Assembly: GCA_028693165.1 (NCBI GenBank)
Contig: JAQUVX010000021.1
Coordinates: 1-64,000, forward strand
DNA from: Lachnospiraceae bacterium
GTDB taxonomy: Bacteria > Bacillota > Clostridia > Lachnospirales > Lachnospiraceae
DNA: 64,000 nt
Direction: 5' to 3'
Below, piece by piece: positions 36,783-51,702 of the stretch. The first letter of the stretch is position 1, and every line of letters begins with the position of its first letter. The notes below the pieces were generated by a model, which ran no database searches, was not told the origin of the DNA, and saw nothing but the letters and a program-made list of their open reading frames with translations. Position numbers and translations under genes: made by a program.

Positions 36783-38579
36783 TTAACCTGACTCCGTCAC
36801 CTCCCAATAGCTATGCGCGCCCCGTGCCTGATACCTGATCCGCCCCTGATCCTTCAAGTCCTGCAATCTTCTTCTGGTATAATAAATGGTTAGGCCAAGC
36901 TCCTCCGCCAGCCTTTTAGCTGATAATTCCGGCGAGGCCTGTAGCGTCTCGCATATTTTTTCATTCACTGCCGCTTTGCCGCTTTGGGTATAAGTCGGGA
37001 AATGGTAGTCTGCCCTTATTCGGTGTAAATTGAACGCATCAAACTGAATTTCCAAATATCCGGGATACACAGCGATCTTTTCCATGTTCCTCAGCATGCC
37101 AAGTGCCGCCGCCTCCCGGACACCTCCTTTGTCAAGCCGGTCTCTGATCTGCTCGATTCTCTGTTCCTGATCCCCGATCTGTTCCCCCTGTGGCTCCTGT
37201 GCATCCTGTTGCTTCATCGCTGCTTTCTTCTGCCGCAGCAGCGCAAGCTGACCGTCCAGCTTTTCACTCATCCGCTGATAATCACCGTTGCTCACCACGC
37301 CGGACAGCAGTTTCTCGATCAGAATATCCTTCTGCTTCCAAAGCTTCTGTTCTTCTTTGAGAATCGCTTTCCTCGGACTGCTGTGATCTGCTTTTTGCAG
37401 CACCAATCTGAGAATCTGAATGGCCTGCTCTGCAATGTCCTTGTCCTGCACCGCTTCCTCCTGAAAATACCGGCTGCAAGCACCCTTGACCACCTGGAAC
37501 AGCTTCTGCTCGTTCAGATGAACGTTGTCACAACCTTCCTCAGATCCGCTTCTCCCATAGGCAACATAGCGTTTACAGGACCATTCCACGACATCATTTC
37601 CGCGCACATCATGTCTTATGCGCTTATAATAGGGCGATCCGCAAAGGCCGCAGAACAGGATTCCGCTGAATGAATATCCATGTTCTTTTTTTACAGGCCC
37701 TTTTTGATCGCTGGTATTCTTAGTTTCCTTCTTTGCTCGCAGATCCATCGCATGATTTGCCCGCGTCCACAGCTCCTCGCTCACCGTCGCCGGCACCATG
37801 TTCTTATGCACGATCCACTCATGTTCCGGATTCCGGATCGTTTTCTTCGTGGTGAAATCATAATGAACCCGGTTCATTACCACCGTTCCCATATTAATCG
37901 GATTCCGTATGATCCTGCGAATCGCGGCATCCTCAAATCGCTTTCCTCTCTGGTTTGTGATTCCCTGTTCAAACAGCGCATTGGCAATCCTGCGGCTTCC
38001 CAGCCCGTCAGCCGCATATTCATACATCCGCCGCTTTACCGCTGCCTCTGCTGCCTCAAGCCGCACCGGTTTTCCGCGCTCTACGATAAAACCATATGCA
38101 TTCTGCGGAAGAATGACCGCAGTTCCCTTTGTCTGCCTTCGCCGGTGTGCCAAATTCAGTTTCTTGGAAAGCTCTCTGCTGTAATCCTCTGCCAAAATCG
38201 CCTTAATTCCCGTAATCAGTGCGTCATCCGGCGTATAAAATTTATGTTCGATATACATATACAGCCGCTTGTTGTTTTCAAGCATCCGGTTCAGGAACCC
38301 ATACCAGTCCGCCGTATTGCGCATCAGCCGATCCTGACTCTTGATCACGATGATATCGAATTTATCTGTCTCCAGATCCTCAAAAAGCCGCAGGTATTCC
38401 TTACGGCCTTTTGTTGTCGTACCACTTTTGGATTCGATATACTGGTCTGCCAGATCCCAGCCCTGCGCCTCCACACATTCCACGGATTCCTGCACCTGCA
38501 TCTCAAGTGCATTTTTCTGCGCCTCCTCCTCCGTACTGCACCGGTTGTAGGTCACCGCCCGTTCACGCAGAGGCATCAT
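36783..38579 (-). CDS. Large serine recombinase (site-specific integrase/resolvase family)
   Basis: 598 residues. The resolvase domain has the catalytic Ser in YNRCSTEEEAQ (about residue 15), with IVIKSQDRLMRN downstream. The recombinase domain is around 160-260, and a zinc ribbon follows with CGLCGSPYYKR, WSCKRY and GCDNVHL. A coiled coil (KEEQKLWKQKDILIEKLL) and a C-terminal winged-helix-like segment (RRRLQDLKDQGRIRYQARGA) complete it. All key residues are present, so it may be active. The ATG at 38579 has AAGG upstream and overlaps the small upstream gene by 17 bp. It lies inside the block that splits the ABC permease, though not at either end. Confidence 0.92.
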   Translation of the reverse strand: MMPLRERAVTYNRCSTEEEAQKNALEMQVQESVECVEAQGWDLADQYIESKSGTTTKGRKEYLRLFEDLETDKFDIIVIKSQDRLMRNTADWYGFLNRMLENNKRLYMYIEHKFYTPDDALITGIKAILAEDYSRELSKKLNLAHRRRQTKGTAVILPQNAYGFIVERGKPVRLEAAEAAVKRRMYEYAADGLGSRRIANALFEQGITNQRGKRFEDAAIRRIIRNPINMGTVVMNRVHYDFTTKKTIRNPEHEWIVHKNMVPATVSEELWTRANHAMDLRAKKETKNTSDQKGPVKKEHGYSFSGILFCGLCGSPYYKRIRHDVRGNDVVEWSCKRYVAYGRSGSEEGCDNVHLNEQKLFQVVKGACSRYFQEEAVQDKDIAEQAIQILRLVLQKADHSSPRKAILKEEQKLWKQKDILIEKLLSGVVSNGDYQRMSEKLDGQLALLRQKKAAMKQQDAQEPQGEQIGDQEQRIEQIRDRLDKGGVREAAALGMLRNMEKIAVYPGYLEIQFDAFNLHRIRADYHFPTYTQSGKAAVNEKICETLQASPELSAKRLAEELGLTIYYTRRRLQDLKDQGRIRYQARGAHSYWEVTESG

Positions 38580-38745
38580 CGATCTGCCTTCTTTCACCCA
38601 TCAAATTTCCACGCATGAATTTCTTCGCCTGAATTTTTTCATCCAGCGTTATGAGACCTTCCCTTTGAAGAAATTCAAATACCCCCTCCAGCGTCTCTTT
38701 CTGCCTGTTTTTCATAAGCATGGAATTTTCTTTTTCGCCAGACAA
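38563..38745 (-). CDS. Small protein encoded upstream of the serine recombinase
   Basis: Up to 60 residues, charged, no TM. The segment EGLITLDEKIQAKKFMRG resembles short helical SHOCT-like modules. The start is uncertain: TTG at 38745 or internal ATGs, none with a strong ribosome site. It overlaps the recombinase start, so it is probably cotranscribed. It could be an accessory or directionality factor, but the sequence does not prove this. Confidence 0.55.
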   Translation of the reverse strand: MSGEKENSMLMKNRQKETLEGVFEFLQREGLITLDEKIQAKKFMRGNLMGERRQIDDASA

Positions 38746-39344: not shown

Positions 39345-41780
39345 TCAGACTCCAGTTTTCGCACTCCTATTCCCAGCCAAAACTGGCAAAGTGGAACCAC
39401 CGTAAGGCATCACAATCACCCTGGCCCCACGCCCCATCTCCTTTACAGCCGCGTCATATGCCTCCTGCACATGGTCAAAAGACTCCATGAAAATATTGCG
39501 TACCAGTTTCTTGTCAATTCCCGATACCAGAAATATCCTGGCCCGCTTTAACGCCCTTGCAAAGGAAGCAGCCTTGTGTCCACCAATCTGGAAATCTCTC
39601 TGTATCCGTTCCAGTATGCTGTCCAGGTCCTTTGCCTCCAGCATCCACTGCTCAAACACGGTTCCCCCCAATCCTTCCGGACACGCGCCTGTCAGGATGA
39701 TAATGCCTCCCGGACGTACTGCCTGCTCCGCGTTAGCCAGGGCCTTCTGGGTCTGATACAGATTCAGGTCCTTTGGTGCCCCGCCCTGGGAGACGATCAC
39801 GATATCTGCCAACTCATTGATTTCCATACGGTAAAACCCATCCAGGAACCTGCATCCCTGTCTGTGAGCCTCTCTCAACTCTCCTGCCACCGCATAAATA
39901 ACATTTTTATGCTCGTCCAGAACCACATTCAAAAGAAAATCCGCACCGCATATGGCGGCCGCCTCTTCCAGATCCTCCCGCACTGGATTTCCTTCAAGGC
40001 TTCCTGCCTTTGCCATTGGGTGAATCATCCTGCTGTGGTTTTTCTGAATAGCCTGCATGGTGGAAACCCCTGGCATGATTGCCTTTGCACCGCCGGAATA
40101 ACCAGCAAAGAAATGGTACTCTATATTACCCAGACATATTCTCAGATCAGCATGAACCACCTTATCCGCTATGTCCACCGGTGTCCCGGCCTTTGTCTCT
40201 CCCATATGAATAAAGCCGCATTCGGATGAATCTATACATCTGTATGTATTGTAAACCTCATCTCCCACCAGATGCCGCATCTCCTCCGGCGTATGTCTCC
40301 TGTGGGTACCCATCGCGAACACCACAGTGACATGGGATCGGCTGACCCCGGCCTTTTCCAGCCGTTTCAGTACATGGGGAAGCACTCTCCATGAGGGCAT
40401 GGGACGTGTAATATCACTCGTAATAATGACTACATCCTTTTTCCCCAATGCCAGTTTTTCAAGCCGCTCTGTACCTATAGGTGAATCCAGCGCCTGTTCA
40501 ATAATATCCTTCTCCGGCGCACACATCTCATTTTTATGAGGGATCAGGGTATGGGCAATGACGTCTCTGGGAATCTTTACTTTTTCCGTGCCGGTACCAT
40601 AACCAAGCTCTATCTCCTCCATTGCCCGGTGCCGCAGTTCATACACATCGTTGATCGTTACCAGCCCTGTTTTCTCCACATCCTGTGCAGTTCTTCTGCA
40701 GATCGCCCACTGACTGTAAGCCAGCATAAAGGCAGCCGCGCCCTTCTGCTCATCTGAAACAACTGCCTCTCCCAGATAATAAGTCGTGCTGCCATCCCGT
40801 TCCGGCCGGTCAGCCGGTCCCAGACCTGCGCCTGCGCAGGTTCCCTCCAGGTGAAGGCAGCCGTTTCTGATCTTCAGCTTCTGTGTCTCCAATGCCATCA
40901 TGATGAGATCCGCCCGGTGGACTGTCTCCTTGTTAAATATTCCCATTTTATATCCCTTATAAATGGAATACGCCACCATGGCAGAGGCGGAAGTCTCCAG
41001 ATAATTGCCAGGTTCCTTTTTCAGAAGCGTCAGTTGGAAGAACAGACCGCTTTCCTGATCCTGATACCGAAGCATTCCTTCCATGGCTTCCTTCCATAAA
41101 CCAGTCAGGTACTGCCATCCCTCTGTATCCCTTGGCAATATGGTACAGCAGTCCGCCAATGCCATCAGATACCAGCCCTCTGCCCTTGACCAGAAATTAG
41201 GGGAACGTCCCGTCTCTGGGTCAGCCCAGAACTGGCATTTTCCCTCATCATATGCGTGGATATACAGGCCGGTTGATTCATCATACAGGTACCTTCTCGC
41301 ATTTTCGAACTGCTTTACAACGTCTGCGCAGTTCTTCTTGCCCCCCAACTCCATTTCATACTGAAGGTAAAAGGGTGCCGCCATATAAAGACCGTCCAGC
41401 CAGATCTGACGGGGATATATCTTCTTATGCCAGAAACTTCCAGATTCTGTCCTTGGCTGATGCCGCAGCTGTTCCATAAGCTGCTCCGCGGCCAGGCAGT
41501 ACTTCTCCTGCCCTGTCTCTCGGTACAGAAAAAGCAGGCCACGGCCGGACGGAATCTTATCCAGACTATACTCCTCCTGGTCATACCACCGTATCCTGCC
41601 GTCAGCACATATGTAGCGATCCAGGAACACCCTGAGAGCCTCCGCATAGCGTTTCCTGCCCGTAGCCTCATACATGGCCTCCAGGGCAGTGAGGATGCAG
41701 CCGTCCTCATAGTTCCAGAACTTCCGGTCCAGTTTCATAAACTCTTCGGTGTACTGTCTGATATACGCTTCAGCTGTCAT
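39345..41780 (-). CDS. Fusion protein: GH105-type unsaturated uronyl hydrolase + LarA-type nickel racemase/epimerase
   Basis: 811 residues in one frame. Residues about 1-370 are a GH88/GH105 (YteR-like) alpha/alpha-barrel hydrolase (WYDQEEYSLDKIPSGRGLLF, catalytic Asp in IWLDGLYMAAPF, SPNFWSRAEGWYLMALAD). From Met387 a complete LarA-like protein (DUF2088) begins, MEEIELGYGTGTEKVKIP. It keeps the residues known from lactate racemase: His in GTHRRHT, His and Lys in YHFFAGYSGGAKAIMPG, His in KNHS. There is no ribosome site before codon 387, so a true fusion is likely. Its start overlaps leuD by 11 bp. It is the last gene of the GntR-controlled operon. A LarA domain implies need for the nickel-pincer cofactor made by LarBCE, not encoded here. 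Confidence 0.85.
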   Translation of the reverse strand: MTAEAYIRQYTEEFMKLDRKFWNYEDGCILTALEAMYEATGRKRYAEALRVFLDRYICADGRIRWYDQEEYSLDKIPSGRGLLFLYRETGQEKYCLAAEQLMEQLRHQPRTESGSFWHKKIYPRQIWLDGLYMAAPFYLQYEMELGGKKNCADVVKQFENARRYLYDESTGLYIHAYDEGKCQFWADPETGRSPNFWSRAEGWYLMALADCCTILPRDTEGWQYLTGLWKEAMEGMLRYQDQESGLFFQLTLLKKEPGNYLETSASAMVAYSIYKGYKMGIFNKETVHRADLIMMALETQKLKIRNGCLHLEGTCAGAGLGPADRPERDGSTTYYLGEAVVSDEQKGAAAFMLAYSQWAICRRTAQDVEKTGLVTINDVYELRHRAMEEIELGYGTGTEKVKIPRDVIAHTLIPHKNEMCAPEKDIIEQALDSPIGTERLEKLALGKKDVVIITSDITRPMPSWRVLPHVLKRLEKAGVSRSHVTVVFAMGTHRRHTPEEMRHLVGDEVYNTYRCIDSSECGFIHMGETKAGTPVDIADKVVHADLRICLGNIEYHFFAGYSGGAKAIMPGVSTMQAIQKNHSRMIHPMAKAGSLEGNPVREDLEEAAAICGADFLLNVVLDEHKNVIYAVAGELREAHRQGCRFLDGFYRMEINELADIVIVSQGGAPKDLNLYQTQKALANAEQAVRPGGIIILTGACPEGLGGTVFEQWMLEAKDLDSILERIQRDFQIGGHKAASFARALKRARIFLVSGIDKKLVRNIFMESFDHVQEAYDAAVKEMGRGARVIVMPYGGSTLPVLAGNRSAKTGV

Positions 41781-42285
41781 GGTCCTCCTCTTTCATCCGT
41801 CTGATAAACAAGGGCTTGATGCCTCCCGCTTCCAGAATAGACATTGCATATTCCCCGATTGTTTCACACTGGTAGTGTTCCCCCGTATCCAGGTTTTTGA
41901 GTTCCCCTGTTCTCATATTGATTTCCAAATTCTGACCGCTCTTTACCATTCCTCCAATGCCTCTGCACACCAGCAGAGGAAGTCCCAGATTAATGGCATT
42001 GCGATAAAAAATCCTTGCAAAGGATTCGGCTACCACAGCTCCCACTCCCATATTAAACAGGGCAATAGCTGCATGCTCCCTGCTGGATCCGCACCCAAAA
42101 TTAGTACCTGCCACAATGATTCCGCCCTTTGGAAAATCCCCTGCAATTCCTTCATCCACACCCTCCAGGCAGTGGCTTCCGATTTCCTCCGGATTGGTAA
42201 GAGCCAGATAACGGCCTGGATAAATCTGATCTGTGTCAATGTTTTTTCCAAGAACCAGAGCCTGGCCTGTAAATTCTTCCTTCAT
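41770..42285 (-). CDS. LeuD-like small subunit of an aconitase-family hydro-lyase
   Basis: 171 residues, usual LeuD size. It has LGKNIDTDQIYPGRYL at the start and GTNFGCGSSREHAAIAL in the swivel domain. The start at 42285 (MKEEFTGQ) fits family length. It forms the small subunit of a 3-isopropylmalate dehydratase-like enzyme with the LeuC-like protein upstream. No leuA or leuB is near, and the genes lie in a uronide operon, so a sugar-acid-derived substrate is more likely than leucine synthesis. Confidence 0.85.
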   Translation of the reverse strand: MKEEFTGQALVLGKNIDTDQIYPGRYLALTNPEEIGSHCLEGVDEGIAGDFPKGGIIVAGTNFGCGSSREHAAIALFNMGVGAVVAESFARIFYRNAINLGLPLLVCRGIGGMVKSGQNLEINMRTGELKNLDTGEHYQCETIGEYAMSILEAGGIKPLFIRRMKEEDHDS

Positions 42286-42289
42286 TTTC

Positions 42290-43588
42290 TCACTTCCCTT
42301 TCCCAGATGCTTCTGTTTTCCGTACATCCGAATCTCCTGAATTTTCGCAGGACGGGTCTGTCAGATACCCAGTCCATGCAGACATAGCTACGGTAGCCGG
42401 CGACGCCAGATATATACCGGAATCTCTGCTCCCCATCCTTCCCGGAAAATTCCGGTTTGAGGTTGTGACGCACACCTCTCCAGCGGCCAGGACCCCCTGG
42501 TGTGCGCTGAGACAGGGGCCACATCCAGGCGCGGATATGGTAGCCCCCGCGTCTATGAGCGTATCCAGGTATCCGTTTACGATACATTTCTTAAATACTT
42601 CAGCAGATGCCGGAATCACCACCATTCGGACATGAGAAGCGATTTTCCGCCCCTTAAGGATGCGGGCCGCTTCCCCTATATCCTCCACGCGTCCGCCGGT
42701 ACAGGCTCCCACAAATGCCTGATCGATACGGACCCTGCCGGCCTGTGCCACTGTGCCCACATTGTCCACACTGGAGGGCATGGAAACCTGAGGCTCCAGT
42801 CCGCTTATATCAAAAACATAGGTTTCCTCATATTCAAAATCACTGTCTGTGTGTTCCACCGTAAATGGGTGACTGCTCCGTCCTGCCACATAATCCAGAA
42901 CCGCCTGGTTTGGTTCCATGTAAGCTGTCTTTGCACCCATTTCCACCGCCATGTTGCAGAGCACCATGCGTCCAGCCACATCCAGTTGTTCCACATAGGT
43001 TCCGGTGAACTCGATCGCCTTATACACTGCCCCGTCCGCCTTCATTTTCCCTATGATGTACAAAATCACATCTTTGGGAAGCACATGACTTCCTGGTATA
43101 CCTTTCAGATGTATCCGTATGATTTCCGGCACCCTGAACCAGAGTTTTCCGGTTATCAGAACTGTAGCCATATCCGTGGCCCCAATGCCTGTTCCCAGGC
43201 ATCCGAATGCGCCATGGGTAGTGGTATGAGAATCGGTTGCCACCAGAATCATACCAGGATATACCAGGCCGGCCTCAGGCATGACCTGATGGCATATTCC
43301 TGCATTGATGTCAAAATGATAGGTAAGTCCCTGTTCTTCCCTGAACAGGCGCATCTCCCTGTGGTTCTGGGATGCCTCAATGGTGGGGGAAGGTGCATAG
43401 TGGTCAAATACAAAGGCCGCCTTCTCCCTGTCCCATATCTTCTTCCCTCCCATCTCCCGGAAGGAATAAATGGTCTGGAGATACAAATCGTTAATCTCCG
43501 CAAAATCAATGTCAGCCGTTATGATTTCCCCGCTTACTACCCGGTCACGACCGCTGTGCCTTGCCAATATCTTCTCTATCGCATGCAT
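42290..43588 (-). CDS. LeuC-like large subunit of an aconitase-family hydro-lyase
   Basis: 432 residues with the 4Fe-4S ligands in VGACTGGR and APGCGPCLSAHQG, and ATDSHTTTHGAFGCLGTGIG in the catalytic domain. The class is 3-isopropylmalate / homoaconitate / dimethylmalate dehydratase type. It would move a hydroxyl between adjacent carbons of a 2-hydroxy acid by dehydration and rehydration. It sits between the enolase-superfamily enzyme (19-bp gap) and leuD (4-bp gap). Confidence 0.87.
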   Translation of the reverse strand: MHAIEKILARHSGRDRVVSGEIITADIDFAEINDLYLQTIYSFREMGGKKIWDREKAAFVFDHYAPSPTIEASQNHREMRLFREEQGLTYHFDINAGICHQVMPEAGLVYPGMILVATDSHTTTHGAFGCLGTGIGATDMATVLITGKLWFRVPEIIRIHLKGIPGSHVLPKDVILYIIGKMKADGAVYKAIEFTGTYVEQLDVAGRMVLCNMAVEMGAKTAYMEPNQAVLDYVAGRSSHPFTVEHTDSDFEYEETYVFDISGLEPQVSMPSSVDNVGTVAQAGRVRIDQAFVGACTGGRVEDIGEAARILKGRKIASHVRMVVIPASAEVFKKCIVNGYLDTLIDAGATISAPGCGPCLSAHQGVLAAGEVCVTTSNRNFPGRMGSRDSGIYLASPATVAMSAWTGYLTDPSCENSGDSDVRKTEASGKGK

Positions 43589-43607
43589 ATCTTTTTCTCC
43601 TGTCTAC

Positions 43608-44702
43608 TTATATGATTCTGAATCTGTCCAATACGCGGTAATCCGGTTCAAAACCAATTCCTGGACGTTCCGGAGCCGGCAGCCTTCCCTCCCTGTCTGT
43701 TTCCAGTGAATGATTGAACGCATGATGCCACACCTCATCGTATGCCGGAGGATAGTATTCAATATAGGACACGTTCCCCACTGCTGCTCCAAGGGAAACA
43801 TTGATGGTCTGATCCCCGTGAGGTGCCAGCTCCAGACAGTGGGCCTGGGACAAGGCTGCTGTTTTTAGGAACTCCGTGACACCGCCCATAAGGAAGGGTG
43901 CCGGGTTTAAGACTGGAATTGCCCCGGTATCAATCAGCTCCTTGAAGCCCCATTTTGTGTATTCATTCTCACCAGCCGCCAGGGGAATCACCGTCTTTTC
44001 CGCCAACTTTTTCATCCCATCGTAATCATGGGGCGCCACCGGTTCCTCCAGGCAGTAGATATCATATTCCTCTACCTGTCTGGCAAACTGGGCTGCCCTA
44101 TGGCTGGAGTATGCACAGTTGGCATCTAGCATGAGCAACGCCTTGGGGCCTATTGCTTCCCTCACAGCCCCTACCCTGACAGCGTCTTCACGAATGCTAA
44201 GAGCCCCCACCTTCATCTTGACACCAGAAACCCCCTGTTTCATATAGCCTTCCATCTCCCTCTGGAGATCAGCCAGTCCTTTTCCTGGTTCATAATATCC
44301 TCCGGCAATATAAACAGGCACACTCCTTCTGTATTCCCCCAAAAGCCGGTAGAGCGGCAGTTCCAGGGACTTGGCCTTAATATCCCAAAGGGCCATGTCA
44401 ATACCGCTGATTGTTCTGGTGCTGATTCCCTTACGCCCCGTAAGCTTAGGCACATAAAGCCTGTCCCAGAGCCACTCCGTACGCATGGGATCTTGTCCAA
44501 TTAACCGTTCCCTCAGCTCATCTGCCATCATAAACGGATTCATGCCCAGTACAGGCCCTGAAAGGCCATATCCCGTAATTCCCTGGTCTGTTTCCACTGT
44601 GATGACCGCAAGACCGCAGTGAGTATAGGTATGCATTCCATTGGTGATGGGACGGCTTTTCTCCCATCTGAAATATTCCTGCCTTACATCTGTTATCTTC
44701 AT
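43608..44702 (-). CDS. Enolase-superfamily enzyme, mandelate racemase subgroup (probable acid-sugar dehydratase/epimerase)
   Basis: 364 residues. The capping domain runs from MKITDVRQEYF. The barrel has the KxK general base VKMKVGA, metal ligands in LMLDANCAY, YCLEEPVAP and AAGENEYTKW, and the His in LELAPHGDQ. This is the MR-subgroup pattern of sugar-acid dehydratases. The start at 44702 is chosen from AAAGGA upstream; an upstream in-frame ATG adds 16 odd residues. In an operon with GH4, GH105, LarA and LeuCD it is the likely first dehydration step of a hexonate or uronate derivative. Confidence 0.85.
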   Translation of the reverse strand: MKITDVRQEYFRWEKSRPITNGMHTYTHCGLAVITVETDQGITGYGLSGPVLGMNPFMMADELRERLIGQDPMRTEWLWDRLYVPKLTGRKGISTRTISGIDMALWDIKAKSLELPLYRLLGEYRRSVPVYIAGGYYEPGKGLADLQREMEGYMKQGVSGVKMKVGALSIREDAVRVGAVREAIGPKALLMLDANCAYSSHRAAQFARQVEEYDIYCLEEPVAPHDYDGMKKLAEKTVIPLAAGENEYTKWGFKELIDTGAIPVLNPAPFLMGGVTEFLKTAALSQAHCLELAPHGDQTINVSLGAAVGNVSYIEYYPPAYDEVWHHAFNHSLETDREGRLPAPERPGIGFEPDYRVLDRFRII

Positions 44703-44773
44703 AATATGATGTCCTTTATAAAGAGGAATGCCGCAAAATGCATATCCCATTCTGCGGCATTCCCTTCCTGACT

Positions 44774-46177
44774 TTATCTGGCAGTTGCTGTCTCTATTTC
44801 GCGGTTGATTCCATCAATCAGCATATCCGCGCAGGCAGAAGCGTCCTCTTCGCCATAGCTCAAAGACTGGATTGCCAGGGTATACACGCCGTCAGGTGCT
44901 TTCAACGCAGCCCGCTCTGTGAATATATCCAGCTTAAAAGCAGACCATGCCATCAGTTTCTCATTCATTTCAGCTACCAGGCTTCCCTCCGTCTCAACAT
45001 ATTTAACTGCATTCTTGTTGCACGGGATGCCGCGGCTGTCCCCCAGGATGACTGCTCCTTCTTCGTCTCCAAACAGGAACTGTATAAGAGCTGCTGCCTC
45101 CGCAGGATGCTCAGACGTGGATGTAATTGCAATTACCTGTGATGCCTTGATCGGACCACCATGATATTCTCCCATATTAATCATGTCACCTACCACAACT
45201 TCGCCTTCTGTCACCGCATCCACATACTTAGCAATATTGGTATCCCAGCACATAGCACCGCCGTAATGACCGTTAATCCAGCTCTCGCTTGTCTCCAAAA
45301 GCTCAGAGGTTCCTTCTCCGGCCAGCTTCTCGGAATTAGGGATAACATGCCTGTCTTCCAGTTTCTTGATGAAATCCAGACCTTCTGCGATTTCTTCCTT
45401 GGAATACTGAAGCGTATTGTCTTTAATCCAATCTCTGCCGTATTTACACTGGAGATAATAAGTCATCAGATGTATCTTCACGTAATCCGCGCAGGCAAAG
45501 GGATAATAGGATCCATCCTCATAAGCCGCGAATTTTTCCCCTGCCTCATACAGTTCGTCCAGAGTGGTGGGTATCTTTGCCCCGACCTTATCATAGGTTG
45601 TCTTGTTCCATATAAAACCGCGGCCCGTATTGGCGATAGGAAGAGCCTGCAGCGCTCCGTTCACCGTGTAAAATGCCTTGTCGGAATCATCGTAATTGGA
45701 CAGGTCAATGATATTGGAAACCTTGTTCAGATCATAAAAGGTATCTCCGTTAGGGGAATAGGCAAAAACCCAATCCATGTTTAACTGTATCACATCCGCT
45801 GCGGATCCCGCATTGAGAGCCAGGGATATCTTCTCCTCATGTCCGCTAAACGCCTCGTACTCCGCTTCCACCGTTATGTTAGGATACTTTTTTTCAAATG
45901 CCTCGATGGCCTTAAGGGTTTTCTCATGGCGGGAATCTCCTCCCCACCAGTTGAAACGCAGGGTAATGAGATCTGTAGTATTTACCTCCATATCAACAGA
46001 AGCTGCTGCCTCTGTACCAGCACCAGATGCCTCCGTGCCCCCTGCTTCATTTGTATCCTGGGTCGCTGCCGGAGCGGCTGTGGTCTCTTTTGACTGTGTA
46101 GGCATACATCCCGCCAGAGACCCCGCCAGAGTACCTGCCAAAATCAGACTTACCAGTTGTTTTCCTCGTTTTTTCAT
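44774..46177 (-). CDS. Extracellular sugar-binding lipoprotein (uronide operon)
   Basis: 467-residue family-1 binding protein. The signal peptide ends in SLAGC (lipobox, about residue 23), followed by a Thr/Ala/Glu-rich linker. The body shows LRFNWWGGDSRHEKTLKAIE and DVIQLNMDWVFAYSPNG. It is the substrate receptor for the permease pair upstream; given the GH4 and GH105 enzymes, a galacturonide or rhamnogalacturonide fragment is likely. Confidence 0.92.
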   Translation of the reverse strand: MKKRGKQLVSLILAGTLAGSLAGCMPTQSKETTAAPAATQDTNEAGGTEASGAGTEAAASVDMEVNTTDLITLRFNWWGGDSRHEKTLKAIEAFEKKYPNITVEAEYEAFSGHEEKISLALNAGSAADVIQLNMDWVFAYSPNGDTFYDLNKVSNIIDLSNYDDSDKAFYTVNGALQALPIANTGRGFIWNKTTYDKVGAKIPTTLDELYEAGEKFAAYEDGSYYPFACADYVKIHLMTYYLQCKYGRDWIKDNTLQYSKEEIAEGLDFIKKLEDRHVIPNSEKLAGEGTSELLETSESWINGHYGGAMCWDTNIAKYVDAVTEGEVVVGDMINMGEYHGGPIKASQVIAITSTSEHPAEAAALIQFLFGDEEGAVILGDSRGIPCNKNAVKYVETEGSLVAEMNEKLMAWSAFKLDIFTERAALKAPDGVYTLAIQSLSYGEEDASACADMLIDGINREIETATAR

Positions 46178-46212
46178 GTGTAACCTCCCTTTATAATTTT
46201 ATTTGTTTTTCT

Positions 46213-47061
46213 TTACCCCTTTACTCCACCTGCGGCAATCCCATCTACAAACGAATCCTGCGCCATAAAAAATACGGCCAGAGACGGGATAATTGCCAGC
46301 AGCGACATTGCCAGAATCCGGTTCCAGTCAAATCCGGTCTCTGTATCCATGGACATTCTTAAAAATATGGATACCGGATATTTGCGCACCGAATTAATGT
46401 AAATCAACGGTCCCATGAAATCATTGGACGCCCACATAAACTGGAACAGGGCGCATGATACGATGGACGGCTTTAGCATGGGAACAATCACGTACCATAG
46501 TCTCTCAACTACATTACACCCGTCAATCTCCGCTGCTTCTTCCAGTTCCTTGGGAATGCCTCTTAAAAATTGTATCAGCATATACACAAAAAACGTATCT
46601 CCTCCCAGCATGGAAGGAATCACAATAGGCAGATAGGAATTCAGCCACCCCACCTCGTTAAACAGGATATACTGAGGTACATTTAAGACCACCTGAGGCA
46701 AAAACAGCGTTGAGAGCAGTAGCGCAAAAAGCAGATTCTTTCCGACAAACCGGAACCTGGCAAATCCATAGGATGTAATTACCGCGGATATAACGGTGAA
46801 TACTACTTTCGGCAGTACGAACTTGTATGTATTCCCCATGAAGTGCAGCAGGTTCATGCCCTCGTAACCCTTAAACCCATTTCTGTATCCGTCCAGTGTG
46901 GGGGCCATGGGAATGATTCCTGCACTGGAAAACAGCTCGGAATTTGTCTTAAAAGACGCCCCGATCATCCAGCACAGGGGATATATCATCACGATTCCCA
47001 GGCCAATCAGCAGGAGATACCGCAAAAACAGGTTAAGACGTGCTTTTTCTTTTCTGTTCAT
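46213..47061 (-). CDS. Carbohydrate ABC transporter permease, MalG type (uronide operon)
   Basis: 282-residue permease with six TM segments, EAA loop ELEEAAEIDGCNVVERLWYV and the tail VDGIAAGGVKG. The start at 47061 (MNRKEKARLNLF) is five bases after the MalF-type stop and has GGAGG-like sequence in front. CUT1 class; no ATPase is encoded locally. Confidence 0.92.
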   Translation of the reverse strand: MNRKEKARLNLFLRYLLLIGLGIVMIYPLCWMIGASFKTNSELFSSAGIIPMAPTLDGYRNGFKGYEGMNLLHFMGNTYKFVLPKVVFTVISAVITSYGFARFRFVGKNLLFALLLSTLFLPQVVLNVPQYILFNEVGWLNSYLPIVIPSMLGGDTFFVYMLIQFLRGIPKELEEAAEIDGCNVVERLWYVIVPMLKPSIVSCALFQFMWASNDFMGPLIYINSVRKYPVSIFLRMSMDTETGFDWNRILAMSLLAIIPSLAVFFMAQDSFVDGIAAGGVKG

Positions 47062-47066
47062 ATGCC

Positions 47067-47963
47067 CTACCTCCCATCCTCGTCTGCATAATAAACCCAA
47101 TACTTCTGGCTGATAAATGCCACCGCCGTAAAGGTCATGATTACCAGGAAAAGCAGCCATGCAATGGCGCTGGCCTGTCCCATCTCATTTCTCTTAAAGG
47201 CTTCGTTATAGACCAGAAGTGAGACCAGCGTAGTGGAACGCAGCGGACCTCCCTGTGTCACAATGAAGGGTCCATTAAACTCCTGGAATTTATGGCACAG
47301 CTGGGTCACGAAATTATAGAAAATAACAGGCGTGATCAACGGGACCGTGATTCGAAGGAACTGCTTCCATTTTCCCGCGCCGTCAATGGCCGCCGCCTCG
47401 TAAAGGTCTCCCTGCACCCCCTTCAGGGCCGCTAAAAAGATGACCATGGGAGAACCAAACTGCCACACTCTTAAAAGCACAATTACAAAGAACGCTCCAT
47501 CGGGATTACCCAGCCAGTTAAAAGCCGGAATTCCCAAAGCCCCAAGCATGATGTTCACAAGGCCCTCTGTCTTGAACAGGAATTTCCACAAAACTGCAAT
47601 GGATACAGACCCGCCCAGTATGGAGGGAATGTAATAAATGGTCCTGAAAAAGTTAAGTCCCTTGATCTTATCGTTGAGTATATAAGCAATAAACAGGGCG
47701 AACATAAGCTCCAATGGCACGGTTAAAAACGCGTACTTAAAGGTCTGTATGAATGCCTTTACAATCAGCTTATCCCCAAGGATATACTTGTAATTTTCCA
47801 GTCCGGTAAAGGATGCTGTCTTGAACAGATTATAGGAATGGAAACTGTAAATGAAGGAGGCTATAAAGGGATATAGCTTAAATGCCAGCAATCCCACCAG
47901 CCAGGGCATAACAAAGGCCAGGCCTATATTGCGTTTCCAAAATCCTTTCTTCTTTTTCTTCAT
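47067..47963 (-). CDS. Carbohydrate ABC transporter permease, MalF type (uronide operon)
   Basis: 298-residue permease starting MKKKKKGFWKRNIGLAF, six TM segments, EAA loop YEAAAIDGAGKWKQFLRITV. It is paired with the MalG-type gene and encoded 17 bp after GH4. Confidence 0.92.
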   Translation of the reverse strand: MKKKKKGFWKRNIGLAFVMPWLVGLLAFKLYPFIASFIYSFHSYNLFKTASFTGLENYKYILGDKLIVKAFIQTFKYAFLTVPLELMFALFIAYILNDKIKGLNFFRTIYYIPSILGGSVSIAVLWKFLFKTEGLVNIMLGALGIPAFNWLGNPDGAFFVIVLLRVWQFGSPMVIFLAALKGVQGDLYEAAAIDGAGKWKQFLRITVPLITPVIFYNFVTQLCHKFQEFNGPFIVTQGGPLRSTTLVSLLVYNEAFKRNEMGQASAIAWLLFLVIMTFTAVAFISQKYWVYYADEDGR

Positions 47964-47980
47964 TCTTTTCCCCCATACGT

Positions 47981-49381
47981 TTATTTCCAGCCGGCCGGAA
48001 GGTAACGTTCTGTATTGCGAATCATATCATCTGCCAGTTTTCTTATCGCTTCCTCGTCCTTGCACTTGTACCATACCAGAGGATCATTCATGAACGCCTT
48101 CACCACGAGGTTCCGGTCATATGCATCTGCTGCCTCCAGTATGTATCCGTGGTTCTGTACATGAGGAAGTATCAGTTCCCTTATTGGTTCCGGTAGGGAG
48201 CCGGCCGCCACTGCCTTAATGCTGTCACGGGAGAATATGGCATTTGTCTCCACCACAGCCTCCTTTGGAAGATTTGCAATCTGCAGGAAGCTGTTTGGCA
48301 TATTGACATTACTCACCATCCGGTCCAGTCCCACCAGGGCTTTTATCTGCTGTACTCCTTCTTCTCCAGATGGAAGGATATCCATCTGCTCATCACCTTC
48401 AATAAGACGTTTTCTCCTTGCCAGACGTTCCTTCATTTGGCTGATTCTGAAATCCACAGTAGTCAGCCCGAACTTCCATGACTTGACTGTCTCCGGATCA
48501 TTGAGATAGATGTTTCCTGGCATGAATTCTGCCAGATGACGATCTCCCGCTGCTGCAATCAGACCGTAACGGTTAAACAAATCAAATTTCACCCTGTGTC
48601 GGCAGTTAAAGGTGGATTTTTCCCATGGACGCTCGGGATCGTCATAGCCCTCCTCAAAATGTGTCCCGATATATCTCTTATAAATCGGAAACAGATCCGC
48701 TCCCTCATAGGATGCAGCGTCAAACCATGTAAAATGGTTGATTCCCAATACATTGACATGGATATCCCGACGGTCAATCGCGCCTGTGCCCAGTTCGCTT
48801 GACGCAATTGCTGCCAGCACCTTCTGTGTGCCGAACACCTCATGACAGCAGCCAAAGGCCCTGATTTCCGGGAATGTCTTGTAAAGACTGGCCACACATA
48901 AGCTCATGGGATTGGTGTAGCTGATGACCCATGCAAGGGGACATGACTCCTTGATCGCCAGTGCAATCTCCTCGTACATTGGCAGAGTGCGCAGGGCGCG
49001 AACCATACCGCCTGGTCCTGCCGTATCCCCCACCGACTGGTAGATTCCCAGCCGTTCCGGCAGATGCACATCCGATCGCATCTCCTCAAAGGTAGCGGGC
49101 AGAATGGAGATTACCACAAAGTCAGCGCCCTCTAATGCCTCTTTTAAGGTGTATGCCACCTTGTAATCCCACTGTCCTTTGGCCTCTTTTCTTCCCTTTA
49201 GCTGGTTGCCGATGATCTGGTTCTCCTCAGCTGCCTTGGCATCAATATCATAGAGCCAGACCGTCCCGTCCAGCGCAGGTTCCAGGGCCAGATCCGCCAT
49301 CAGCTTCCATGCCCATGCTTTGGATCCGCCTCCTATGTAAGCCATCTTGATATCTGATACATGATGATTGGTCCACTTCAT
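47981..49381 (-). CDS. GH4 family NAD-dependent glycosidase, probable alpha-galacturonidase (LplD-like)
   Basis: 466 residues. The Rossmann start is KMAYIGGGSKAWAWKLMADL, the metal Cys is in GCCHEVF and the metal His in VLGINHFTWF. The GTVWLYDID strand and the CHEV rather than CHSV motif place it with LplD-type alpha-galacturonidases. GH4 enzymes use NAD+ and Mn2+ in a redox-elimination mechanism in the cytoplasm. The start at 49381 is set by AGGAGG eight bases upstream. First gene of the operon controlled from 49481-49501. Confidence 0.85.
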   Translation of the reverse strand: MKWTNHHVSDIKMAYIGGGSKAWAWKLMADLALEPALDGTVWLYDIDAKAAEENQIIGNQLKGRKEAKGQWDYKVAYTLKEALEGADFVVISILPATFEEMRSDVHLPERLGIYQSVGDTAGPGGMVRALRTLPMYEEIALAIKESCPLAWVISYTNPMSLCVASLYKTFPEIRAFGCCHEVFGTQKVLAAIASSELGTGAIDRRDIHVNVLGINHFTWFDAASYEGADLFPIYKRYIGTHFEEGYDDPERPWEKSTFNCRHRVKFDLFNRYGLIAAAGDRHLAEFMPGNIYLNDPETVKSWKFGLTTVDFRISQMKERLARRKRLIEGDEQMDILPSGEEGVQQIKALVGLDRMVSNVNMPNSFLQIANLPKEAVVETNAIFSRDSIKAVAAGSLPEPIRELILPHVQNHGYILEAADAYDRNLVVKAFMNDPLVWYKCKDEEAIRKLADDMIRNTERYLPAGWK

Positions 49382-49480
49382 TCCCATATCCTCCTTTGTT
49401 ACGAGCATTTGACAGCCGTATTCCGGCAGTCTGCATGCGATACATGTTACTCTCTGCCATTTAGCAAAGCCGCGCTTTGA

Positions 49481-49501
49481 ATATCGTATATCGTATACGA
49501 T
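49481..49501. promoter_or_regulatory. GntR-type operator between GH4 operon and regulator gene
   Basis: A perfect 12-bp palindrome ATCGTATACGAT (49490-49501) overlaps a second half-copy TATCGTATA (49482-49490). It resembles the TNGTATACNA operators of FadR/UxuR-type GntR regulators, and the divergently encoded GntR gene follows. It lies about 100 bp upstream of GH4, downstream of weak -35/-10-like sequence (TTGAAA, 17 bp, TAAAAC on the minus strand). The rest of 49382-49680 is A/T-rich. Confidence 0.75.
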
Positions 49502-49620
49502 TTAATGTAGTTTTATCATACTCTTGATAATATTTCAATTACTTTTGTGCATTATTTTAATATTTAGCTATTATTACTAATTTTTATGTGCACTTTTCCA
49601 TCTATCTTCACAACAAAGTT

Positions 49621-49649
49621 TTGACTCTTTTCACTTTATATGCTAAAAT
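49621..49649 (+). promoter_or_regulatory. Promoter of the GntR regulator gene
   Basis: -35 TTGACT (49621-49626), 17-bp spacer, -10 TAAAAT (49644-49649), about 30 bp before the start codon. Confidence 0.75.
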
Positions 49650-49680
49650 AACCTTATTCTAAGAAAAGCGGGTGAAACAA

Positions 49681-50340
49681 ATGAAAAAGCTGGATTCGCT
49701 GGAAATAATGCCCACGCGCATCCGAATCGCATCCATTCTTCGCAAGGCGATTTTGTCAGGTGAGTTTAAAGAAGGGGAAGAATTATCCCTTACAGACATA
49801 GCCAATAACCTGGGTGTCAGCAGGACGCCGGTCCGTGAAGCATTTCAGATTCTCTCCTCTGAAAATCTGATTTTGCTGAGAATGAATAAAGGGGCGATTG
49901 TAAAAGGAATCACCACCAAAACAATCCGTGAGCATTTCGAAATGAGATCTTTGTTAGAAGGTGAAGCCGCTGTCAGGGCCACCCTGAGACATTTGGACGT
50001 ATCGGAACTGATGGAATCGCAGATCCACATAGAAAGCCTGGGAGAAAATTTCTCGAATGAGGAGTATCAGGCCTACAATCAGAACCTCCATACTTCCATA
50101 TGGAAGGCCGCGGACAACAGTAAGATGTATTCCACTCTTTCCTCACTGTGGAATGGAAGTTCCTTTGGAAAAACCGTCTCAGCCAAGGATCATCAACTTC
50201 TCTCCATCAGAGAACACAGGAATATTCTCGAATACATCCAGTCCTGCAATCCCTATCTGGTACGCAAGGAAGTGGAGCACCACATTGAAAGAAGCATGAA
50301 CAATATCATTGACAGCTTCTCCTTAAAAGAAAATAAGTAA
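49681..50340 (+). CDS. GntR family (FadR/FCD) transcriptional regulator
   Basis: 219 residues from ATG 49681; a GTG three codons upstream is also possible. The winged helix spans about 10-70 (LSLTDIANNLGVSRTPVREA, FQIL), with a helical FCD ligand domain to the end (EMRSLLEGEAAVRATL, NQNLHTSIWKAADNSKM). FCD regulators bind sugar acids or other carboxylates and usually repress. Divergent from the uronide operon, with a matching palindrome between them, so it almost surely controls that operon. Confidence 0.9.
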   Translation: MKKLDSLEIMPTRIRIASILRKAILSGEFKEGEELSLTDIANNLGVSRTPVREAFQILSSENLILLRMNKGAIVKGITTKTIREHFEMRSLLEGEAAVRATLRHLDVSELMESQIHIESLGENFSNEEYQAYNQNLHTSIWKAADNSKMYSTLSSLWNGSSFGKTVSAKDHQLLSIREHRNILEYIQSCNPYLVRKEVEHHIERSMNNIIDSFSLKENK

Positions 50341-50352
50341 AAAAAGAGTCAA

Positions 50353-50400
50353 AAGAACCGAACCACAGCACATCTGCTGCTGGTCCGGTTCTTGCTTTTT
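50353..50400 (+). terminator. Terminator of the GntR gene
   Basis: A stem of AAGAACCG..CAGCA with TGCTG..CGGTTCTT (a few mismatches) around a CATC loop is followed by GCTTTTTGC. The sequence between it and the R2 copy (50401-50560) contains no gene that I can see. Confidence 0.8.
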
Positions 50401-50560
50401 GCAAAATTAATTATCTGTTCTTCCTGATCAAGCTTAACAAGGATATATTTCATGTTATTCAGCTTCATATGATACGTTATCTCGTGTCACGGTCAGATAC
50501 TTGATGGATGGTGCTATATGGTCTCTATCTGTGATAATTTTCGTTAGCATCTTTCACTTG

Positions 50561-50919: not shown

Positions 50920-51702
50920 TCACAGCCCCCTGCTCCTCCACTCGTCCACCATACCCAATCCTCTCCAAAGCAGTACACAGCTAAACACCTGGCTCCCATA
51001 GATAATCAGGTATCCCAGCCCCTGCTGCGCTGCCAGGAACTCACCGATGATCACGCCCACCAGGCAGAGGCCGACGTTGACCTTCATATTGCTGACGATG
51101 AGCGGCACGGAGCCGGGCAAAAGCACCTTGGTCAGCACATCCTTCCGGCTGCCGCCCAGTGAGTAAATCAGCTTGATCTTATCGGGATCCATGTTGGAAA
51201 ATCCGTTGTGCAGGGTCAGAATTGAACCGAAGACTGCCACGGAAACAGCCGCCACCACGATCGTGCGCATATGGTTGCCCAGCCAGACGATCAGCACCGG
51301 GGCCAGCGCAGATTTGGGCAGGCTGTTTAACATGACCAGATAGGGTTCCAGGATCTCCGAGGCACTGCGGCTTGACCACAGCAGCACCGCCGCCAGAAGC
51401 CCCAGCACCACCACCAGGCCGAAGCTGACCAGCGTCTCGAAAAGTGTGATCCCGATATGGATGAAAATGCTCCGATCCGTCACCATATCCCGAAAACAGA
51501 AGAAAACTCTGGACGGAGAGCTGAAGATGAAATCGTCGATCCATCCCAGTCTTGTACAGAGTTCCCATATTGCAAGCAGCAGCACCAACAGCATGATCCG
51601 GCAGACTGCTACTTTTCTCTTATGAAATTGTTCCTGCTCGATATATCCCCGCTGAGCCTCCGAGATCGAAAGCTCCCGGTTCTCTTTTTTCTTTTTTTTC
51701 AT
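50920..51702 (-). pseudogene. SsuC-type ABC transporter permease, N-terminal part of a split gene
   Basis: Codons 1-240 are a normal nitrate/sulfonate/taurine-type permease (TM near 32-52, FSSPSRVFFCFRDMV, EAA-like region KIKLIYSLGGSRKDVLTKVL, GEFLAAQQGLGYLIIYGSQVF). After the Phe codon at 50985-50983 the sequence turns into 20 unrelated residues (SCVLLWRG..EWRSRGL) and a stop. The true last 32 codons are at 17132-17034. The protein would lack its last TM helix, so it is probably inactive. Its natural partners may include the ATPase at 4355-5119. Upstream on the same strand is yitT. Confidence 0.82.

Follow-up and report, generated by a model that had tools for sequence, protein, structure and literature searches.

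Which compound is degraded by an operon that encodes pectin-type glycosidases together with enzymes of hydroxy-acid metabolism? The question is raised by a nine-gene cluster of a Lachnospiraceae bacterium (assembly GCA_028693165.1, contig JAQUVX010000021.1), which was analysed in the stretch from position 1 to 64,000 (64,000 nucleotides; "the window"). A glycoside hydrolase of family 4 (GH4), two CUT1 permeases, a solute-binding protein, an enolase-superfamily enzyme, a two-subunit LeuCD-like aconitase, and a fusion of a GH105 domain with a LarA domain are encoded in a single packed operon. Its intergenic gaps are 35 nt or shorter, and some genes overlap. A GntR gene diverges from the operon, with a palindrome between them. 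The parts are of known kinds, and their combination looks new. Our answer, put forward tentatively, is that the substrate would be a galacturonoside of a dicarboxylic hydroxy acid, either of malate type or galactarate, which would be cleaved and its acid fed to central metabolism. The features are as follows.

49672..50340, + strand: GntR/FCD regulator (PF00392, PF07729)
49480..49503, no strand: operator palindrome AATATCGTATATCGTATACGATTT, recognized from the sequence and its recurrence in relatives
49397..49449, - strand: candidate structured leader RNA in the 5′ untranslated region of the GH4 gene; its two helices flank an internal loop, GUA/AA
47981..49408, - strand: GH4, predicted LplD-type alpha-galacturonidase (PF02056/PF11975; best PDB match LplD 3fef, E-value 1.5e-137); likelier start at 49387, preceded by AAAGGAGG
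47067..47963, - strand: CUT1 permease 1 (PF00528; 64.2% identical to its counterpart at the GH105 locus C13 of the same genome)
46213..47160, - strand: CUT1 permease 2 (PF00528; 68.5% identical to its counterpart at C13); likely start at 47061 from start context
44774..46177, - strand: solute-binding protein (SBP_bac_8/SBP_bac_1)
43608..44702, - strand: enolase-superfamily enzyme with the mandelate racemase (MR) fold; the open reading frame (ORF) as listed starts at 44750
42290..43588, - strand: LeuC-like large subunit of the aconitase family (TIGR02086; PDB 4nqy, E-value 2.9e-117)
41770..42327, - strand: LeuD-like small subunit (TIGR02087; loop YLAL); likely start at 42285
39345..41780, - strand: GH105 (residues ~1-363) fused to LarAH6-type LarA (~387-804) through a linker (365-385)
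39365..50515, no strand: block common to the window and the loci L032 and L033 (blastn), with abrupt ends on both sides

All nine genes named in a first-pass annotation, made from the sequence alone, are present. Its description as a GntR-switched catabolic operon with a palindrome agrees with the present analysis, which places the palindrome at 49480-49503. No importer ATPase was found among the eight operon proteins in a Pfam scan.

The same set occurs elsewhere. Relatives of the enolase-superfamily enzyme were compared at 26 loci. All nine genes are present in L032 and L033, and five in L034 (GH4, both permeases, the binding protein, and the enolase-superfamily enzyme). At an E-value of 1e-8, none of the remaining genes was detected in the other 23, apart from L036, where a permease and GntR were matched weakly. 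The modules also occur apart, in L034 and at the LeuCD loci described below. DNA identity across 39365-50393 is 85-86% between the window and L032, and 89-90% between the window and L033 (blastn). It is 79-80% in the final 130 bp up to 50515, where similarity stops sharply. The flanks of L032 and L033 are common to each other, not to the window. An ABC permease gene (50920-51702, - strand) loses similarity to its L093 relative at 50978, and its 3′ end is replaced, probably at the insertion junction. Downstream, a large serine recombinase (36783-38597, - strand) with Resolvase, Recombinase, and zinc ribbon domains adjoins the shared block; its 24 matches in phage records are all below 60% identity. 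The cluster was apparently transferred horizontally; a direction of transfer may be inferred, whereas the shared block with its abrupt ends is observed directly.

The GH105-LarA fusion joins domains from both sides of the operon in one protein. The same 808-aa ORF is present in L032, which comes from an independent isolate (Clostridium sp. 1001271st1 H5), and this copy rules out an assembly error as the origin of the fusion. In L033, from a metagenome-assembled genome, a single stop interrupts the LarA half of the frame. AlphaFold predicted two confident domains with a disordered linker at residues 365-385 (mean predicted local distance difference test score, pLDDT, 82.6), and the predicted template modelling score of 0.52 leaves their relative placement undefined. 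The ratio of nonsynonymous to synonymous substitution rates against L032 and L033 is 0.03-0.13 across the ten segments tested; the GH105 half has values of 0.12-0.13 and the LarA half of 0.10. These are pairwise values only (synonymous sites are saturated against L034), and they indicate purifying selection on both halves. Given the ORF in an independent isolate, the two confident predicted domains, and the selection on both halves, the fusion is real. It is also rare. Among 200 genomes of the family and 392 of the order, sets that partly overlap and in which a few best candidates per genome were scored, the only single match spanning both halves is that of the host genome. Of 72,556 plasmid records, 57 match part of the fusion and none covers 80% of it.

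GH4, the GH105 domain, and the importer look like parts for the use of pectin fragments. The GH4 protein belongs to its family and carries the NAD/metal motif; its CCHE and GINHFTW motifs are the same as in eight relatives inspected, and we take them to be the NAD/metal residues that define the LplD-type subgroup. The GH105 domain scored 270.9 bits against PF07470. In alignment to 4wu0, it keeps 9/9 active-site residues: Y24, D74, H118, W127, D129, M133, H175, and both Trp of FWSRAEGW. The list for YteR is Tyr41, Asp88, His132, Trp141, Asp143, Met147, His189, Trp211, and Trp217, as given in PMC4528949. The domain is of the YteR type with a complete catalytic set, and hydrolysis of unsaturated galacturonides is predicted. 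The permeases of C13, a locus that also holds a gene resembling GH28 by eye, share 64-69% identity with those of the operon. The entry of a galacturonide, possibly unsaturated, as proposed in the first-pass annotation, is supported by the LplD best match, the complete YteR-type residues, and this permease kinship. The accompanying claim that the usual hexuronate route is absent is unsupported: UxaC is encoded twice elsewhere in the genome, and for kdgK, kdgA, and uxaB the analysis covered the cluster alone.

In Bacillus subtilis, lplABCD and yteR are rhamnogalacturonan-type uptake genes. The present operon resembles them in its LplD-type GH4, YteR-type GH105, and CUT1 importer; to our knowledge, the B. 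subtilis genes are not accompanied by LarA, LeuCD, or an enolase-superfamily enzyme. GH105 is unfused both in B. subtilis YteR and in Clostridium acetobutylicum CA_C0359, a GH105 protein (PMC4528949), whereas it is fused here.

By profile score, the LarA domain is of the malate-racemase type. It scored 546.3 bits against NCBIfam NF052593 (LarAH6 malate racemase; cut-off 500) and stays far below the hexonate-type models (24.2 of 500 and 66.8 of 740). MAR2, a malate racemase from Thermoanaerobacterium thermosaccharolyticum, belongs to LarAH6 (PMC7583248, PMC11770544). The window protein keeps the GGHK motif, including its HK, the Mar2 cofactor residues R74, K181, and H197, the two catalytic His residues, and K351, according to the cofactor and catalytic positions given in PMC7583248. 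At the loop position of Mar2 Tyr172, Phe is observed in the window, L032, and L033 (3/3) and Trp in L154, while Tyr is kept in 14/14 other LarAH6 proteins; the loop reads HFF in the window, versus HYK in Mar2 or HYF. In a LarA tree with 17 rows, the L154 LarA splits off together with the fusion LarA pair (95/97; midpoint root only). Unlike MAR2, the window LarA is fused to GH105 and stands beside LeuCD. In four other loci (L096, L097, L099, and L101), a standalone LarAH6 gene follows genes that resemble by eye archaeal-type glyceraldehyde-3-phosphate dehydrogenase and phosphoglycerate kinase.

The first-pass annotation read the operon as a route for a uronate or unsaturated uronate, in which the three acid enzymes would replace the usual hexuronate steps. 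The pectin-like GH4, GH105, and importer fit this proposal, members of the LarA superfamily also epimerise sugar acids (PMC11770544), and the closest structures to the enolase-superfamily enzyme include sugar-acid cycloisomerases. The galacturonide entry of that route stands. The replacement of the hexuronate steps is unlikely, because the LarA domain scores above the malate-racemase cut-off and far under the hexonate-type ones, UxaC is present twice, and LeuCD and GntR are found at other loci that lack uronide genes.

The LeuC-like subunit scored 517.5 bits against TIGR02086 (cut-off 410.15), and the LeuD-like subunit 173.4 bits against TIGR02087 (cut-off 108.95). Both fall below the leucine-pathway equivalogs, with 447.1 against 610.65 for TIGR02083 and 157.3 against 245.85 for TIGR02084. 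They resemble isopropylmalate/citramalate isomerases (PDB 4nqy, 3vba) in having two subunits and in reaching the subfamily cut-offs, and differ from them in forming an operon with sugar genes and in scoring below the LeuC/LeuD equivalog cut-offs. Two further LeuC homologues and a LeuD are encoded at C23 of the same genome. Maleate hydratase was considered as the function of LeuCD, and the literature was not decisive. Citramalate, considered in connection with 2HCT transporters and malic enzyme, was set aside as well.

Relatives of the LeuC subunit at 64-70% identity were found in 7 of 298 other genomes of the family (L152-L158). LeuCD is accompanied by neither GH4 nor GH105 in the six readable or partly readable loci; the seventh, L155, could not be read by ORF picking. 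GntR relatives of 62%, 53%, and 50% identity adjoin LeuCD in L152, L156, and L157, respectively (3/7). Beside it, L153 and L157 encode 2HCT transporters and malic enzyme, the latter recognized by Pfam in L153 and by eye in L157, and L156 encodes a GntP permease (1/7). In L154 (6833-15797), a second sugar-type operon comprises CUT1 permeases, a GH106-like protein of 1064 aa (Pfam E-value 8.6e-6, below the gathering score), LarA, a Mem_trans permease, and LeuCD. L158, a short contig, shows none of these neighbours of LeuCD. LarA and LeuCD are joined to two different sugar-importer operons. With malic enzyme, 2HCT, and GntP as neighbours of LeuCD elsewhere, and with the LarAH6 cut-off passed, the acid module looks dicarboxylate-directed.

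These loci also bear on a reading of the operon as a mosaic, in which a pectin-fragment module and a separate malate-type module share one regulator, both nutrients coming from plant food with no chemical link between them. GH4 relatives at 44-65% identity are present in 39 of 298 other family genomes, and none of the nine neighbourhoods inspected (of 13) holds LeuCD or LarA; a GH105-like gene lies near GH4 in just one of them, L161. LeuCD occurs without GH4 or GH105 in L152, L153, L156, and L157, and L034 represents the GH4 side only. The fusion, with purifying selection on both halves, argues instead for a shared path, as does L154, where LarA and LeuCD again share an operon with a sugar importer. 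Co-regulation of two modules ranks close behind the galacturonosyl hydroxydiacid and is a doubtful but serious alternative.

The enolase-superfamily enzyme likely starts at 44702, because residues 1-13 of the longer frame have pLDDT below 50 and the relatives begin there. Its KxK motif is K178-M-K180, and K178, D209, E235, and E261 are invariant in the alignment A1; the four archaeal rows shown have His in place of K180. H311 of the His-Asp dyad is invariant in the same alignment. The Asp column of 19 rows contains Ala in four (the window, L032, L033, and L034a), Asp in 12, Asn in one, and Ser in two. The MR-subgroup assignment of the first-pass annotation holds for the fold, KxK, the three metal ligands, and the His, while the dehydratase activity that it proposed is unproven with Ala at the dyad Asp. 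The enzyme is below every NCBIfam cut-off listed, and its structural neighbours include aldarate enzymes and sugar-acid cycloisomerases, a fold comparison that cannot tell the substrate and does not exclude families outside its list. It shares the fold, KxK, metal ligands, and His with L-talarate/galactarate dehydratase, galactarolactone cycloisomerase, and 3,6-anhydrogalactonate cycloisomerase, and differs from them in its identity of only ~30% and its Ala. In a genus set of 24 genomes, the host included, no relative above 51% was found outside the host genome. Since L034 keeps only GH4, the importer, and this enzyme, the enzyme belongs with the GH4 substrate.

Relatives at 43-44% identity are found in importer operons of L035 (10013-12662) and L036 (9992-15735) with argininosuccinate-lyase-family proteins (Lyase_1 and ASL_C2), perhaps as epimerase-lyase pairs for substituted succinates. 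Succinyl substrates of the iminodisuccinate or ethylenediaminedisuccinate type, suggested by these two loci, were rejected for the present operon, which has no such lyase.

Enolase-superfamily chemistry is proton removal beside a carboxylate, often with beta-elimination. The enzyme might accordingly dehydrate the non-reducing-end galacturonosyl residue (H5, 4-OH) inside the cell and supply GH105 with a 4,5-unsaturated uronoside without a lyase. This would fit the chemistry, the ring-opening cycloisomerases among the near structures, and the altered dyad as the mark of a changed reaction. It is highly improbable all the same: L034 has GH4 and the enzyme and no GH105 in the stretch examined, saturated galacturonic acid (GalA) is already removed by GH4, and we know of no precedent for such a supply.

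The regulator contains the GntR winged helix-turn-helix and FCD domains of Pfam. The frequency of the palindrome within the window alone is not above chance, and it is the conservation of the operator across loci that carries the weight. The host genome (3.6 Mb) has a single exact copy of the 14-mer ATATCGTATACGAT. Further exact copies lie in the intergenic regions next to GntR in L032, L033, L156, and L157, with two sites in L157. The copy in L152 is degenerate with two mismatches, and the 14-mer is absent at L153, L154, L155, and L158, where no GntR kin was seen. As a marker of a wider regulon the operator was set aside: one-mismatch sites number four in the host genome versus two in the control, and no wider regulon is claimed.

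The stretch between the operator and the GH4 gene contains a 53-nt element (49449-49397), which is present once in the window and twice in tandem in L032 (5183-5329) and L033 (5194-5341). In the five copies, 90% of cells pair. Covariation is 0.508 versus 0.234 in shuffled alignments, a value reached by 0/500 shuffles; five pairs are changed on both sides, a number reached by 54/500. Because the rows are mutually related, this covariation is suggestive, not proof. Folded alone, the longer segments of L032b, L033a, and L033b do better than shuffles (z -3.0 to -3.6), whereas the window and L032a copies are not clearly better (z -1.3). No match was found in Rfam, nor does the exact pattern fit any viral contig. 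In a search of 99 out of 185 sources, the leader model matches its five training rows, the window among them, and one further site only weakly (E-value 0.047), between convergent genes in L166 (= L130). These data are suggestive of a candidate cis-regulatory RNA.

The preferred reading, with substrate, order of steps, and inducer as we infer them, would work as follows. The cluster would be a transferred operon for a saturated or 4,5-unsaturated galacturonoside with a dicarboxylic hydroxy acid as aglycone, taken up by the CUT1 importer. GH4 would cut off GalA, or the GH105 domain unsaturated GalA. The fused LarA domain would invert the C2 hydroxyl of a malate-type diacid, LeuCD would move, remove, or add a hydroxyl on the freed acid, and the enolase-superfamily enzyme would abstract a proton beside a carboxylate, with beta-elimination or epimerisation. 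The acid would join metabolism at the level of malate or oxaloacetate, and GalA would pass to the UxaC encoded elsewhere in the genome. GntR would bind the palindrome and sense the acid, and the leader RNA may add a second control. Candidate substrates are galacturonosyl-galactarate, or a galacturonoside of malate, tartrate, or alkylmalate. Aceric acid or Dha from rhamnogalacturonan II is a further conceivable candidate. Plants make oxidised oligogalacturonides that end in galactarate (PMC7773757), and their use by this operon is a conjecture.

Several observations weigh against this scheme. LarC was not found in the host assembly (94.3% complete), and LarE gave weak matches only, below the cut-off, so that LarA may lack its cofactor there. 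The genomes from which L032 and L033 come (G655 and G656, with the same operon) have both genes, at a short distance from each other. Their absence is not unique to the host, as only 9 and 7 of 13 genomes with other LarAH6 proteins have LarC and, over the cut-off, LarE. The genes may lie in the missing ~6% of the assembly, or the transferred LarA may lack its cofactor here. The known LarAH6 substrates are C4 diacids and galactarate is C6. The fusion is known from three genomes only, one with an interrupted LarA half. The dyad Asp of the enolase-superfamily enzyme is lost, L034 manages without LeuCD and LarA, and malic enzyme together with 2HCT occurs at just 2/7 LeuCD loci. The LeuD loop YLAL resembles YLAM of the leucine-type LeuD of the same genome and so does not discriminate substrates. 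We know of no galacturonoside of a hydroxydiacid demonstrated to feed such genes, and a strict search for galacturonide-malate found no publication.

In a more specific form, the operon would be a dedicated pathway for galacturonosyl hydroxydiacids such as the oxidised oligogalacturonides by which plants silence their own damage signals. GH4 or GH105 would free the terminal diacid, the LarA-LeuCD-enolase-superfamily set would consume it, and GntR with the often tandem leader RNA, which may sense the acid, would be the switch. This form is quite unlikely as stated. A limited search of open-access literature found no publication on the combination of GH105, LarA, enolase, and isopropylmalate enzymes. 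Within this limited search of the literature and Rfam, no description was found of the gene set, of the fusion, or of the leader RNA.

If the galacturonosyl hydroxydiacid is the substrate, nickel-pincer racemases, for which the papers cited here so far describe free hydroxy acids as substrates, would be linked to acids derived from glycans, a physical fusion of enzymes would name the pathway, and an unrecognised plant acid conjugate would be among the compounds used by Clostridia. The leader RNA is a separate candidate for an undescribed class of regulatory RNA.

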